A DNA stretch of 32,004 nt, from NCBI GenBank assembly GCA_022703485.1, contig JAKLDO010000037.1, positions 1 to 32,004 on the forward strand. The letters are read 5' to 3'. Below, in pieces: positions 1,095 through 16,611 of the stretch. The first letter of the stretch is position 1. Each line of letters opens with the position of its first letter. The stretch is from a bacterium. GTDB lineage: Bacteria; UBP6; UBA1177. Made by a program: the position numbers and the translations under genes. The notes below the pieces were generated by a model. That model was not told where the DNA came from and did no database searches. It saw only the letters and a program-made list of their open reading frames with translations.

Positions 1095-2993
1095 TCATTC
1101 CTGAAGGTTTATGGCTTTCAGATCGAGCCCTGCTGTGTAAGCATAGGAAACATACTGCGAGAAGCCGTACACATAAAGTCCCACTGGCTTGGTAGCTGTC
1201 AGGTTGTATGCGCCCGTAGACATATCCACCCAGCCTTTGTACCAGTCCGTGCCGGGAATGTTCATGAAACTGTTCGATGAATAACTTGTACCGCCTACTT
1301 CGATGTTGGTGTCCTTCTGGGCGATTATGGTTATTCTGTTGAAGTCATAATTTGGCGGGACCAGGAATATGTACTCATTTCTGAGCTGTTCATTCGGAGC
1401 GAGGAGCATCATTGCCGGATCACCCGTTCCTGCACCGGCATCCTGACTTGCAAGGAACTGCCCCACAAGTATGGGTTTTTCTGAATGTATCGTAAAATCG
1501 GTGTTCGTGTTGAAATCATGATACCAGCCAGCCTGAAGGGTTACACCTCCTGTAAGCCCTCCGGACCACGAAACCACTGTATCATTCTCTGAAGCAAGTA
1601 TCCTGAAGTAATCATTTTCGCCGCCTCTGGGCTTAGTTCTTCCGGCAACGAAATCCTTTCCCCAGCTCTGAAGAGGGAATATCTGGTGCTCCATGTGATC
1701 GCATGCTGTCTTATCTGCAGGGATCCTTGTACAGACATGACCTCCGAAAACAGCAACCTTTCTGTCGGCCTGGATGAACGAGCCTGTAAGATCGGCTCCG
1801 TAACTGTTTGACCCGCCGTTTGTGGAATTAATATTAAGAACCTGATATTTGTTCAGTGTATAACTGACAGTAGATCCGGGATTTTCTGCATTGATTCCCC
1901 CGCCACCTGTTGATGTTGCTGTATATGTTACTTTCACGATTGTCTGACCATCTTCAACAGCAATTACTGTAATAAATCCGGGAAGAGATGACCAGCCGGG
2001 CCATGACATCGCATAATATTTCTCTGCAAGAGCTCCTATCGGAAGAAGAAGAGTGGCATCATTTGAATACATTAGAACATTGCCGAACGGGTTCATCTGA
2101 GTCACGGTCACAGGTTTTGATGATACCAGTTTAAATCCGAGATCGCTTATGCCCGGTCCCATGATCCTTCTGCTCTGACCGAGTTCAAATGAATACAACC
2201 CTTTGGATTGGATCGTGTTCTCAGCTATCAGTGCATCTCCTGAACCGTATACTTTCACATTGACATCTGTGGCATTCGGATTCGCAACTACAAGAGCGTA
2301 TGTAGCCTGGTCCTCATATCCCCCGCCCTGCTGAAGGAAAGCACCCCAGTATTCACAACCCACATAGCTTTTATCTTCTGCGGCAATTCCGCATGCGTCA
2401 AGACATTTTCCCTTGTAACAGACAACTCCTTCACCCGAACAGGTCTCCTTATCGACAAATTCCGTTCCGGTTTCATTGCATTCAACAACAACCAGCCCCC
2501 GGCACGAAAGAGTTTCCGGTTCGCACAGTTTAAGGACACAGTTAGGGTAGCCTTCATATCCCGGTTCGCACTGTTCGCAGAACTCACCTGCATAACCGGT
2601 GTAACATGAACAGCCTCCTATTGATTCAAGACATTTGCCGTGATCATTACAGTTGATCCCCTTGCAGGCTTCTCCCTCCTCTTCACAGTCAGGATACCCC
2701 GTGTAGCCCATTGCACATTCGCTGCACTCGCTTCCGCCGTAACCTTCATCACATTCACAAAGGTTCTGTGCATTAAGCGTTCCATGCCCGTTGCATTGCT
2801 CACCCGGGATGAAACCGTCATTATCAGGTTTGACCACCGTACCTTCTTCAACACATTTTCCTGTCACAGGATCGCATTCATATCCCACAGGACAGTCCTG
2901 TGTTGTAAGACATGCTTTATTTTCCCCTTCTTCATCCTTCACACAGGCTGTGAAAAGTAGGAACGAAACAATAATAAAAACTATTAGTTTCAT
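1095..2993 (-). CDS. EGF-repeat / IgGFc-binding-type surface lipoprotein
   Basis: 632 residues. The N-terminus is a lipoprotein signal peptide: Lys2, a hydrophobic core, and a lipobox ending F14-T15-A16-C17; the residue after Cys17 is Val, not Asp, which in Lol-type systems favours the outer membrane. Residues 18-60 hold a C-x5-D-C-P-x-G-Y-x-C motif common in secreted lipoproteins. Residues about 65-155 form EGF-like, laminin-style cysteine repeats (for example ECDEGYGGSEC and GCSCYTGYAGEFCEQC). Residues about 215-630 resemble the IgGFc-binding N-terminal domain, starting at SYVGCEYWGAF and containing VAVFGGHVC, where a further cysteine pair is likely. Such proteins occur mainly in Myxococcota and relatives; their role is unproven, and adhesion or surface display is the usual guess. 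Start ATG 2993 has GGGTG upstream and a good promoter at 3027-3054. Confidence 0.85.
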   Translation of the reverse strand: MKLIVFIIVSFLLFTACVKDEEGENKACLTTQDCPVGYECDPVTGKCVEEGTVVKPDNDGFIPGEQCNGHGTLNAQNLCECDEGYGGSECSECAMGYTGYPDCEEEGEACKGINCNDHGKCLESIGGCSCYTGYAGEFCEQCEPGYEGYPNCVLKLCEPETLSCRGLVVVECNETGTEFVDKETCSGEGVVCYKGKCLDACGIAAEDKSYVGCEYWGAFLQQGGGYEDQATYALVVANPNATDVNVKVYGSGDALIAENTIQSKGLYSFELGQSRRIMGPGISDLGFKLVSSKPVTVTQMNPFGNVLMYSNDATLLLPIGALAEKYYAMSWPGWSSLPGFITVIAVEDGQTIVKVTYTATSTGGGGINAENPGSTVSYTLNKYQVLNINSTNGGSNSYGADLTGSFIQADRKVAVFGGHVCTRIPADKTACDHMEHQIFPLQSWGKDFVAGRTKPRGGENDYFRILASENDTVVSWSGGLTGGVTLQAGWYHDFNTNTDFTIHSEKPILVGQFLASQDAGAGTGDPAMMLLAPNEQLRNEYIFLVPPNYDFNRITIIAQKDTNIEVGGTSYSSNSFMNIPGTDWYKGWVDMSTGAYNLTATKPVGLYVYGFSQYVSYAYTAGLDLKAINLQE

Positions 2994-11168: not shown

Positions 11169-11717
11169 ATGGAAGAGCTACTGAAAAGCAATCTTGACAA
11201 AATATTCAGCTATTCCCTGTTCATAACAGGAAATAGAGACCGGGCACTTGATCTGATGCAGGATACTATTGTGACAGTACTTAACAAAAAACACCTTTAT
11301 AAAGAGGAATCTCATTTCAGATCATGGATATTCAGAGTACTGAAAAACAATTACCTTAATCAACTGAAAAAAGAAGGTGTTAAAAAGGAGCTCTTTCTCG
11401 GTGACCTTGCAAATGACGGTGACAGTTCTTCCGTTTTCATCAACGAATCAAACGGGAAGATAGAGGAGCTTAACGATCCGATACTTCGTGAAAGGATCAA
11501 TTCAGTAATAGCTTCGATCCCCATGGATTACAGGGAAGTTGTCATTTTCATAGAAATGGACGGGATGTCATACGAAGAAGCGGCAAAAGAGCTCGGCATC
11601 CCTGTCGGAACAGTTATGAGCAGACTGCACAGAGGCCGGAGCTATCTCAGAAAAATGCTCCGGAAAGAGGCCGGCGAATTAAGGATCATTACAGAAAAGG
11701 TGAGAAAAAATGCATGA
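11169..11717 (+). CDS. ECF-type RNA polymerase sigma factor
   Basis: 182 residues with the two-domain layout of extracytoplasmic-function sigma factors. Region 2 spans about 5-70 (ALDLMQDTIVTVLNK, then HFRSWIFRVLKNNYLN). Region 4 spans about 105-162 with the helix-turn-helix SYEEAAKELGIPVGTVMSRL followed by HRGRSYLRK. There is no SnoaL or other C-terminal add-on. ATG 11169 is preceded by AGGAAACGGGAA. The gene overlaps its anti-sigma factor by eight bases, the usual sigma/anti-sigma pairing. I could not identify a convincing autoregulated GGAAC/GTC promoter upstream. Confidence 0.93.
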   Translation: MEELLKSNLDKIFSYSLFITGNRDRALDLMQDTIVTVLNKKHLYKEESHFRSWIFRVLKNNYLNQLKKEGVKKELFLGDLANDGDSSSVFINESNGKIEELNDPILRERINSVIASIPMDYREVVIFIEMDGMSYEEAAKELGIPVGTVMSRLHRGRSYLRKMLRKEAGELRIITEKVRKNA

Positions 11718-12519
11718 CACCAGATGCAATTTAAATGAGATCTTCATTGAACAGTTTGCTGACGGCGAACTTGACCTTAAAGAAAGTTCTGAAATTTCGG
11801 CTCATCTTGAAAACTGTCCTGAATGCAGAAAAAAATATGATGAGATAAAACTTGTAAAGCGTGTTATTACAGGAATAAAGGAACGGGAAGTGCTGTCTGT
11901 TATCGAAAAAGAGGGTTTTATAAGTCTGATAGACCGTGCCGTAAAACCATCTTTCGCGACAAGAATTGGAACTGTGATGAAAAGTCACGGTTTTTCTGTC
12001 GGCTTCAGTTTTTTTTCATTTGCATCTTTTATTTTTCTTTTTTCTTATTACATATATACATCTGACAAAGAGAATAGCCTTGTCGTCAACGAAATCATTT
12101 CGGCCCATAGGCATTCTCTTCCTGACGAATTTAATGGAACAGAAAACACAGAGGCTGAACTTCAGAAAAATTTCAAAGTAGATAAAAAACTTATGAAAAA
12201 ATTGGCAAAGATCTCGCCTGTAGTTCGTGGAAGATATACATCCATAGCTGCGAACCCCGTTGCCAAAATAAATCTGGAAGGCATCGGGAAGAACAAGGGA
12301 ACCCTTTTTATGTCAAAAAAGAACCATCATCTTAAAGAACTGTTCGACGATAAAGACTGTGTTGTGAAGACTCATGATGAAGAGTGTAAAGCAAGACATT
12401 TTCAGGAAAAAGAAAATGACCTTGTTTATTGGGAGAACCAGGACAACGACTATATCTTTATAACGGAAAGTAGCGGGATGATGGCAGAAATGGTCCAGTT
12501 GATCAGCTCAGACTACTGA
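11710..12519 (+). CDS. Membrane-spanning zinc-finger anti-sigma factor
   Basis: 269 residues. The cytoplasmic N-terminus has an anti-sigma domain with H-x3-C-x2-C (His32, Cys36, Cys39 in AHLENCPEC), expected to bind zinc and hold the sigma factor. A single membrane segment lies at about 97-116. The outer 150 residues have a layout resembling other anti-sigma sensor domains: an ISAHRHSLP segment, a segment ending NHHLKELF, and a closing [15 protein letters not shown]. They contain just two cysteines, Cys217 and Cys226, which could form a disulphide switch; that is inference. Its eight-base overlap with the sigma gene implies coupled translation. The 3' end overlaps the opposing receptor gene by seven bases. 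Confidence 0.9.
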
Positions 12520-15500
12520 TTCTCAGTATCCTGTATCTTTGCAACTTCTTTTCTGAGATTAGCAGTTTCTGCATTAAGCCTTCTTGAAACCTGATATACA
12601 CCATCGACCATTGTCGTGCTCTCCTGTGTTATCCTTCTTATGTCGCTCAGAGAATGGTCCACGCTGCCGACTTCATTAACATGAAGCTCTATGACTCTGC
12701 GGATCTGGTCTATCTGATGGGAAATAGACCTGAATTCGCTTACGAGTTCATTTATAAAACTTACAATGTTGTTAACGGAACTTCTTCCGGACGAAACCTT
12801 GCTTATTGCGTCATCAATAAGCTTCTGTATTGTCTCAACCGCACTTGCAGTCTGCACTGAAAGTTCTCTTACAGATTCGGCTACAACTGCAAAACCTTTC
12901 CCGGCATCCCCTGCTCTGGCAGCTTCTATCGCAGCATTAAGTGAGAGAAGATTTGTCTTAAAAGCTATTTCATCAACTACTTCGACAATATTGGAAACCT
13001 GGTTTGCACTTGATTCTATTCTTTCTATTGCCTCCACAGCATCGCTCAGAACAACAGTGGAACTGTCCGCTTTCCCTGAGATCCTTGTAAGCGTCCTGTT
13101 CATTTCCTGAACACTTTCACTTGTTTCAGAAAGTTTTGCCGTTATATCAGAAAGAGTTGAAGAAGCCGTATCTATCATCGCATATGTGGCATTGAACTTC
13201 TCAGCAGTTATCCCGGTATTGCCAGATATTGTCTTTGATATATCAGCAAGTGTGTCTGAAAGCGTTTTGATATGAAGTATTATGTCCCTGAGGTTTTTAG
13301 TCCTGGACTGAATTGTCCGGCTCAGAAGGTTTTCTCTGTTCCTGACCTCGGTCACCTTTCTGTTTATCCAGAAAACCAGCCCTGCAAGAAAAGCAAGCGT
13401 TATTATTATTTTAAACCACAATGTCTGCCAGAAGAACGGTTCTATTACAAAAACCACAGAATCCCCTTCTTTGTTCCAAACATTGTCATTGTTGGCAGCG
13501 ATCACTTTAAATACGTACTTTCCAGGATCAAGATTTGTATAATATGTGTACCTTTGTGTTCCGGCATCGTTCCACTTAGTCTCAAGACCTTCAAGCATAT
13601 ATTTGAATTTAACCTGTTCTGGGAACAGAAAGCTCAGCCCTGTAAACTCAAAAGAGACCGATGCTGTCCCCGGCTTCAATTTGATAGAATCGCCGTTAAG
13701 ACTTGTAAACCTCTTATCATTTGCTGAAACTGAAACTATATGCACAGGTGGAACAATCGCATTCGTTTTTATGTCTGACGGATCTACTACTGCCGCTCCT
13801 TCAGCAGTGGGGATCCATATCTTGCCATCGCTGGCTTTCCATATATTAGGCTGCGTGCCTCCATTACATTCGGGGGTAAGCAATCCATCCTTGAAACCGT
13901 ATGTTACAGGGTTGACTCTGGGAATACTGCCATCAAGGAAACTTTCGAATTCTTTTCTTTCAATGAACTTTATTCCCTTGTTCGATGTAAGCCACAAATT
14001 GCCGTTATTATCCTCTATTACATCAAATATTGTTCTTACATCTATACCCTTCTTTCTATCTATGGTGATAGCTCCCATGCTTTTTTCGTATACCGTCAAT
14101 CCGTTATCGGATGCAAAAATAAGTTTTCCGTCAGAGGCCGGATATATCGAAAGAGTGCTTATGTTCTCAAGATTCGTGAAATCCTGTATCAGAGACTCGC
14201 CCTGTATTTTATAGGGACCTCTCTTTGTTCCGATCCATATATTGCCGGACTGGTCCTCAGTTATGGCAGAAACGCTCATATGATCGCTGTTCGCTATGGC
14301 CGAGATGATCTCATCTTTCATATATGCGACGCCTTTGGACATTGTGCCTATCCAGAGGATTCCTTTCGAGTCCTTGAAAACAGCCGAGATCATCTTATCG
14401 GGAAGACCGTCTTTATCGGTGTAAAGCTTTGTTGCAGCTCCGTTATCTGTTATTTTTAAAAGTCCCTTTCCGTAGACACCGGCCCATAGAACATTTGCAC
14501 TCTTCTCCTGATAAAGGGTCAGCACCGTATCAAAGCTTTCCAGAGATTCACCGAAAGTTATCTTGCTCAGTTTATTGTCTTTAAGTTTATAAATAGCTCC
14601 GGCCCAGGTGCCCAGCCACATTCCGCCATCACGGCTTTCAGTAAGCGGGAAAACTACGGCTTCAGCAAGTCCGTTCTTTCTTCCGTAGGTTATGAACTTG
14701 CCTTCCTTGACCCTGTAAAGACCGTATCCTCTCGTACCGAACCATATACTTCCTTCTGTATCCTCCATAATTGAAACGACATAGTTATTAGGAAGCCAGT
14801 TCGATTTATCATCGTCTCTGCTGCAGAATCTGAAAAAACCGTCATTGTATGTGCCTACAAAAGTACATCCGTGCCTGTCAATGCTTATGGCGCTTATCAG
14901 CTTATCGGATAGAACTTTCGATCTGAACTTGCCTGTATCTTCGCTCTGAGGATCGAATGTGAATATTCCGTCGCCCGCAGTACCGATGAGGAACCGTTCC
15001 TGACTTTCAAAATAAACCGTGGTGACCTCTGAAGGAAATGTTGCAACTTTTTTAACTGAAGTGCCTTCTATTTTTGAAAGGTAGTTCTTTGATGCGACCC
15101 ATATCGAATTATTCGATCTTCCAATAAACTTAACTTTGTTGTCGGGCAGTCCCTGTGAACGGTCAATTATGGAAATGTTCCCGTCAGGCTTTATGACCGC
15201 CACGCCGGACTTATCGGTTCCTGCATAGAAAACACCGTCATCTGTCTGAGCTCCCGTATTTATTATATTGTCAGGAAGACCTGATCTTGTATCGAATATT
15301 TTGAACTCTTCAGTTTCGTAGTTCAGATTTAAAAGACCTCCTCCATCTGTTCCTACCCAGATATTGGGGGACTTTATATCCTCGAATATGAATTTTGTAC
15401 TGTGATTTTCAAGAGGAAGAGAAGAATCATCGTAAAGTCTGAACTTTATTCCGTCAAACTTCACGAAACCCTCTTCTGTACCCATCCAGATGAACCCGTC

Positions 15501-15653
15501 ACGGGTCTGGACCATGGTTGTCACACTGTTCTGAGGCAGACCGTTCGAATTGTCCCACCTGTCAAGCATGAACTGGTTCAAGGAAACATCCTTTGAAAGT
15601 CCGCTCAATGAAAAACAGAATAAAAACAGGATGATTAATGAAGATCTTTTCAC
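12513..15653 (-). CDS. Reg_prop/Y_Y_Y beta-propeller receptor with methyl-accepting chemotaxis domain
   Basis: 1046 residues, GTG start at 15653 with AGGTG upstream. Signal peptide about 1-20. Residues about 30-615 contain a dozen or so degenerate two-component-regulator propeller repeats of the form GLP-x-N...D-x-G-x-I-W-x-G-T (for example [39 protein letters not shown]). A Y_Y_Y domain follows at about 645-735 ([29 protein letters not shown]). One membrane helix is at about 746-763. The cytoplasmic part is not a histidine kinase but an MCP coiled-coil hairpin whose tip, about 894-926, reads [18 protein letters not shown] then [17 protein letters not shown]. No C-terminal CheR-tether pentapeptide is seen. 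It would sense a periplasmic ligand, perhaps a glycan, and signal to CheA/CheW. No che genes are nearby. Confidence 0.9.
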
Positions 15654-15732: not shown

Positions 15733-16611
15733 TCAGGACTTGAAGAGCGTTTTTAGTCTCTCTTTAAGAACCAGCAATGTTGCTATACTCAAAATCAGCA
15801 GACCGGAAAAAAAAGTCCCGGAAAGCCTTTCATCAAGAAAAACATATGCAAATACAACTGCGACGGCCGGTTTGAAGAGGAATATCAGTGAAGCCCCCAG
15901 CGCCGTAAATCTTTTTATGGTCTCAAAGAAGGTTACATATCCGAACCCTGTCACGATAAAACCCAGATAAATGAATGCCGCGATCTTTTCCGTTTCATAA
16001 AAACCGGCATCCGGCATGAAAGGTGCTCCGTAAACAATTATAAAAATAAGATTTGCCGCCGATCCGGCGAAAAAGGATACCAGGTTAACAGTGAAAGGTG
16101 ATATTTTCAACAATGTTCTTTTGCTGAGTACCGTGTAAAAAGCAAAGATCACAGCGGCAAGCAGGGCAAACAGCATTCCGCCGCTCAGAACGAAACCCTT
16201 TTCGCTCATGATGACTGCAACTGCGGCAAAGCCTGCAAGCACTCCAGCCATCTTTCCTGCAGTAAAGCTTTCAAGTCTGAACAACGACGCAAAGAGAAGT
16301 ACAAAAACAGGATTTGAACAGAAGATCGTGGCGGCAGTTGCGGCAGAGCTCATTTTAACGGCTACCTGCAGAAAGCTCATTGCAAGGAAGGAATTAAGTA
16401 TCCCCAGCAGTATCAAAACCCGCCATTCCTTAAAACCGAGTCCTGCGATCTCACTGAACCTTTTTCTGATCCCGGGGTAAAACAGGAAAAAAAGGAACCC
16501 TGCCGTAAAGCGCCAGAAAGTAAGCACAAAAGGATCGATCGTTCCCATAAGTGGTTTGGATACCGCCTCCATTGAAGCGAATATGACAAGTGTTACCAGA
16601 AAATAGAGCAT
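15733..16611 (-). CDS. EamA/DMT-family transporter
   Basis: 292 residues with ten predicted membrane segments in two homologous halves, the EamA (drug/metabolite transporter) plan. Recognisable family features are PFVLTFWRFTAG near residue 27, MSFLQVAVKMSSAATAATIF in the first half, and GASLIFLFKPAVAVVFAYVF with FLDERLS near the end of the second half. It probably moves a small metabolite or amino acid across the inner membrane; the substrate cannot be told. GGACC precedes ATG 16611. The stop lies 79 bases before the start of the propeller-chemoreceptor gene on the same strand. Confidence 0.88.
   Translation of the reverse strand: MLYFLVTLVIFASMEAVSKPLMGTIDPFVLTFWRFTAGFLFFLFYPGIRKRFSEIAGLGFKEWRVLILLGILNSFLAMSFLQVAVKMSSAATAATIFCSNPVFVLLFASLFRLESFTAGKMAGVLAGFAAVAVIMSEKGFVLSGGMLFALLAAVIFAFYTVLSKRTLLKISPFTVNLVSFFAGSAANLIFIIVYGAPFMPDAGFYETEKIAAFIYLGFIVTGFGYVTFFETIKRFTALGASLIFLFKPAVAVVFAYVFLDERLSGTFFSGLLILSIATLLVLKERLKTLFKS

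Follow-up and report, generated by a model that had tools for sequence, protein, structure and literature searches.

One gene in the window (the whole stretch of DNA analysed, 32,004 bp, equal to the entire contig G000:C171) encodes a protein that carries, in a single chain, a periplasmic sensor of the type found in hybrid two-component systems (HTCS), with which gut bacteria recognise sugar chains, a membrane helix and the signalling hairpin of a methyl-accepting chemotaxis protein (MCP). The protein is real, apparently rare in its architecture and conserved within one uncultured lineage. Based on the features described below, it is rather probable that this protein is a transmembrane chemoreceptor, in which the HTCS-type sensor acts through the hairpin on CheA and thereby on type IV pili and MglA, with no adaptation of its own.

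The receptor gene is a single open frame with no internal stops. Pfam and hydropathy agreed on the layout proposed in the first-pass annotation, that is, a Reg_prop and Y_Y_Y sensor, a membrane helix and an MCP hairpin in one chain (Table 1). The matches to Reg_prop (118 bits, in five stretches) and Y_Y_Y were both far over the cut-off, and that to MCPsignal reached 118 bits against a cut-off of 34.6. The Reg_prop repeats and Y_Y_Y lie ahead of the transmembrane helix, which makes the sensor one of HTCS type. No histidine kinase, receiver or AraC output was detected in the receptor by Pfam, and thus the protein itself is not an HTCS. The nearest solved structures by sequence (phmmer) were 3v9f (E 6e-51), 4a2l (E 1.7e-38) and 3ott, all sensors of Bacteroides thetaiotaomicron. 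An AlphaFold2 model of modest confidence (mean pLDDT 65, pTM 0.40; the propeller mostly 75–90) consisted of short, repeating strands, followed by a Y_Y_Y region rich in strands and by long helices. The top Foldseek match of this model was BT4663 (E 2e-43) with a low TM-score of 0.25, and the match therefore concerns the local order of the fold rather than the overall arrangement. The ligand of the sensor is probably an oligosaccharide or a similar compound.

Table 1. Positions in the window of the receptor gene, its domains and its neighbours
Feature	Position	Strand	Remarks
Whole receptor gene	12513..15653	(-)	1046 aa, GTG start
Signal peptide or first membrane helix, residues 1-25	15579..15653	(-)	Hydropathy peak 1.69
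Periplasmic beta-propeller sensor (Reg_prop repeats), residues about 26-625	13779..15578	(-)	PF07494; phmmer to 3v9f, 4a2l; model and Foldseek
Y_Y_Y domain, residues 675-737	13443..13631	(-)	PF07495, 55 bits
Transmembrane helix, residues 739-768	13350..13439	(-)	Hydropathy peak 2.24; helical in model
Cytoplasmic linker helix, residues 769-800, R/K-T-x-x-L pattern, without HAMP	13254..13349	(-)	Pfam; linkers compared by eye
MCP signalling hairpin, residues 801-1046	12516..13253	(-)	PF00015 match at residues 859-1025 (12579-13079)
Hairpin tip, residues 899-915	12909..12959	(-)	T900-G915 invariant in 7/7 orthologues
Equivalents of Tsr sites 297, 304 and 311, residues 821-836	13146..13193	(-)	Methylatable Glu/Gln pair absent
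Equivalent of Tsr site 493, residues 1017-1018	12600..12605	(-)	Asp-Gly in window receptor
EamA-type transporter gene, just upstream of receptor	15733..16611	(-)	Adjacency kept in 4 family genomes
ECF sigma factor gene, convergent neighbour	11169..11717	(+)	Context only
Zinc-finger anti-sigma gene (zf-HC2), tail to tail with receptor gene	11710..12519	(+)	Context only

A che cluster on contig C1 of the host genome encodes CheY, CheA (with Hpt, H-kinase_dim, HATPase and CheW domains), CheW, a longer CheW-domain protein, CheR, CheD and CheB, so that cheA and cheW, for which a check had been recommended, are both present together with cheR, cheB and cheD. Directly after CheB come the genes of a receiver-DUF4388 protein and an anti-sigma-type ATPase (L027:6760-9385), through which the Che pathway may have a further branch of output. 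Contig C166 encodes PilB, PilT, PilC, PilS and PilR, and contig C1, at distances of about 8 and 18 kb from che, also has a second PilT-type ATPase and MglA; the latter matches MglA of Myxococcus xanthus at E 1.5e-68. FlhA was found in none of the 24 genomes of the order that were searched, but three genomes from a different family in the phylum have it; its absence rules out a flagellar output of the receptor for the order. The motility suggested in the first-pass annotation would thus be of a kind without flagella, and the receptor is probably coupled to CheA. Given that flhA is absent and that a pilus locus, MglA and che are present, surface motility through type IV pili and MglA is the most likely output. 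Since type IV pilus-type ATPases are encoded in all these genomes, including those of a genus without che, the control of pili is argued from exclusion and gene content.

The same receptor might feed a Che pathway that governs not movement but c-di-GMP, gene expression or development. Such an output is unlikely, yet has several points in its favor: the receiver-DUF4388 and anti-sigma-type ATPase genes follow the che cluster, sister sensors of the same genome carry AraC and GGDEF outputs, and flagella are absent. On the other hand, the second PilT-type ATPase and MglA share a contig with che, and CheD, CheB, CheR and a stand-alone CheY are the usual parts of motility systems. Control of pili and MglA is hence retained as the preferred reading.

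Over 214 residues, the hairpin of the receptor needs no gap against E. coli Tsr (1qu7; E 7.6e-25), and its alignment with 13 MCPs from other genes, of 232 columns, is likewise gap-free. The hairpin thus has the length of that of Tsr, a member of the 36H length class. The tip sequence given in the first-pass annotation was exact. The columns invariant among seven orthologues include F898 and T900-G915, which span residues that in Tsr serve in CheA/CheW contact and in the formation of trimers, and from the alignment the tip is predicted to be equivalent to the CheA/CheW-contact tip of Tsr. HAMP is common in chemoreceptors but not universal, and no match to HAMP (PF00672) was detected by Pfam in the receptor or its orthologues; the control MCPs did match. 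The methylation consensus, taken as [ASTG][ASTG]xx[EQ][EQ]xx[ASTG][ASTG], was found in none of the seven receptor orthologues. As a control, canonical MCPs of the same genomes carry this consensus at -94, -87, -80 and +102 from the tip glycine, the positions of Tsr sites 297, 304, 311 and 493, respectively. At the first three sites, the receptors of the window family have N-A, D-T and S-D, followed by D-G, D-N or D-S at +102, and those of the other family have S/G-D, D-L and T-D, followed by E-E at +102. In the orthologues of family f3, this EE pair (LVEEVHRA) is missing the flanking small residues, and its methylation is possible. Because the consensus is absent from all seven proteins, the term “chemoreceptor” is used here and is not meant literally as “methyl-accepting”. 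The hairpin thus stands as first annotated, but the absences of HAMP and of methylation sites had been missed.

A tree of hairpins, which was midpoint-rooted and contained long branches, grouped all nine receptor hairpins together with 100/100 support, on a long stem (2.5 changes per column). Three MCPs of the order (G005:C312, which has a HAMP domain, G020:C199 and G021:C45) fall on this side of the tree as well, and all three retain the methylation consensus at +102 only, which suggests that the methylation sites may have been lost stepwise. The simplest reading of the tree is that one fusion event gave rise to the receptor, a reading that is tentative because of the midpoint rooting and the long branches. 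The long stem, together with the absence of both HAMP and the methylation consensus, would also fit a degenerate hairpin that has lost CheA signalling, so that the receptor would be left with the role of a scaffold or decoy in arrays; this is improbable, however, because no orthologue differs at the tip residues through which CheA/CheW are contacted and trimers form, and the length of the hairpin is kept to the residue. A hairpin that signals to CheA remains our preferred reading.

By searching a total of 61 genomes (the host and 60 others), six further full-length copies of the receptor were identified, in addition to copies split between contigs in G019, G020 and G024. The seven full-length receptors, including that of the window, align end to end with 41–68% identity to the window protein (59–68% within the family and about 44% for a further family in the order), share the same Pfam architecture and are ungapped from the transmembrane helix through the linker and hairpin except at the extreme C-terminus. 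The lineage of the receptor recurs under separate public records in a contig scan. The host genome is a draft in 239 contigs, and its contamination is estimated at 5.4%, but an assembly or frameshift artefact uniting a Reg_prop protein with an MCP is excluded, because the frame is single and stop-free and the identical junction, with the same domain order, is found in seven genomes, several with separate public records.

The neighbouring genes tell little about the ligand. The ECF sigma and zf-HC2 anti-sigma genes noted before are indeed located beside the receptor gene (11169-12519). The arrangement of EamA and receptor genes on the same strand with convergent anti-sigma, ECF and aminotransferase genes is kept in the four receptor-bearing genomes of the window family, but not at the orthologues in other families. 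The polysaccharide locus (Wzz, O-antigen-ligase-like, Polysacc_synt, epimerase, WecG and glycosyltransferase) is also present as described; its role, however, is biosynthesis, and its adjacency is not kept at any orthologue, and thus it is uninformative on the ligand of the receptor. The proposal of glycan sensing from these neighbours has accordingly been dropped, the ECF pair being convergent and kept in one family only. Elsewhere in the window (1095-2993), a 632-aa protein with an IgGFc_binding domain (258 bits) is encoded, likely a surface protein.

Relatives of the sensor carry other outputs. Among the four other Reg_prop/Y_Y_Y proteins found in the host, three end in an AraC-type HTH and one in GGDEF, indicating the swapping of outputs within the lineage, and the best other relatives examined in sister genomes were GGDEF proteins. 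The linker pattern R/K-T-x-x-L is, by eye, common to the kinase, GGDEF and MCP versions. Three candidates for further fusions were rejected: a distant match in G055 was a Reg_prop histidine kinase/receiver hybrid, and L167 and L203 were GGDEF proteins by eye.

The receptor is present in all 10 genomes of the order that have any MCP. In the sister genus g3 (G002, G004 and G006-G017), none of 14 genomes has the receptor, an MCP, CheA or CheW, and pilus-type ATPases and Reg_prop-like sensors are retained. The absence of receptor and che from this genus may represent one loss event, and the pattern is therefore taken as a consistency check and not as independent replication. CheW was found in 8 of the 10 receptor-bearing genomes; neither CheA nor CheW was found in G003 and G024, both of which are incomplete assemblies, and in G001 CheW is present with a CheA-like CheW domain only as an end fragment. 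Most che-bearing genomes contain a near-fixed trio: one MCP of canonical type, the propeller receptor and a small soluble protein that resembles a receptor. The last is a protein of 230 aa (L029:6682-7374 on G000:C174; L211-L217), with a Rossmann-like N-terminus (IAFIGATESEL..., recognised by eye and with no Pfam match) joined to an MCP tip hairpin that is very short (PF00015, 64.8 bits). Those genomes of the order that have che conserve this protein, the tip of which, TKNIDILAINASIEAARAGE, hardly varies, and by its sequence it has the appearance of a minimal cytoplasmic receptor. A 1133-aa MCP of the flagellated sister family (L199:285-3683, G025:C124) contains several near-identical internal repeats, VKPINVTAEYVDRISKGDIPPKITD..., which are HAMP-like by eye.

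The architecture had been thought to be rare, and the searches agree with this view within their scope of three other phyla. Among 160 loci of sensor homologues, sensor and hairpin were found in one frame only in this lineage. With a search profile that spanned Y_Y_Y, the transmembrane helix and the hairpin, the matches listed for 670 genomes (195 + 80 + 395) of these phyla were to one half or the other and included no chain covering both, where 3 to 19 candidates were scored per genome and an exception could be missed. In the literature searched, no paper was found that pairs Reg_prop propeller sensors with chemoreceptor or MCPsignal terms; the matches to Reg_prop plus chemotaxis concern, to judge by their abstracts, c-di-GMP and quorum sensing.

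A route of signalling can be proposed from these features. Binding of ligand to the periplasmic double-propeller/Y_Y_Y sensor would move the juxtamembrane helix, which would act directly on the Tsr-length hairpin with no HAMP relay. The intact tip would join CheW and CheA of the single che cluster, and CheA would control regulators of CheY type whose targets are type IV pili and/or the polarity of MglA, not a flagellar motor. With all consensus methylation sites lost, the receptor itself should escape adaptation by CheR and CheB, and would either impose a constant bias or depend on neighbours in mixed arrays that are methylated. What is added here to the first-pass annotation is the loss of HAMP and methylation sites, the absence of flhA, the order-wide conservation and the sister sensors with AraC and GGDEF outputs. 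More broadly, and with somewhat less than an even chance, the receptor could be an ancestral chemoreceptor of the whole order and belong to a near-fixed repertoire of about three types of receptor in each cell. Its HTCS-type polymer sensor would then drive CheA directly, with neither HAMP nor methylation-based adaptation, for non-adapting control of surface motility through pili and MglA in bacteria that have no flagella.

The HTCS sensor module could then be coupled to a chemotaxis array in addition to kinase, GGDEF and AraC outputs, and movement may thus be steered by a polymer sensor whose usual role is in gene expression. As a natural receptor with a CheA-contact tip but without HAMP and methylation sites, the protein also provides a probe of how far these elements are necessary for signalling.

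The Frz system of Myxococcus xanthus and the Pil-Chp system of Pseudomonas aeruginosa are Che-like and reportedly act on MglA polarity or type IV pili (PMC10329633, PMC4546325, PMC12632253). Like them, the host combines a Che-like pathway with type IV pili, and like Myxococcus it also has MglA, but it differs in the type of sensor and in having CheD, the link between che and pili in the host being predicted from its genes. The Reg_prop/Y_Y_Y proteins of the order with GGDEF or AraC ends (for example, those on G000:C101, C181, C210 and C112) share the sensor, transmembrane helix and linker helix with the receptor and differ in the output domain. Compared with E. coli Tsr, the hairpin is gap-free and the tip residues are kept, but HAMP and the methylation consensus are lacking, and the sensor is unrelated and much larger. 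The HTCS of Bacteroidota, BT3049 (3v9f), BT4663 (4a2l/4a2m) and BT4673 (3ott), have the periplasmic Reg_prop propellers and Y_Y_Y in common with the receptor, but their output is HisKA/HATPase/receiver/AraC, whereas that of the receptor is an MCP hairpin, beside which no polysaccharide-utilisation locus is located.
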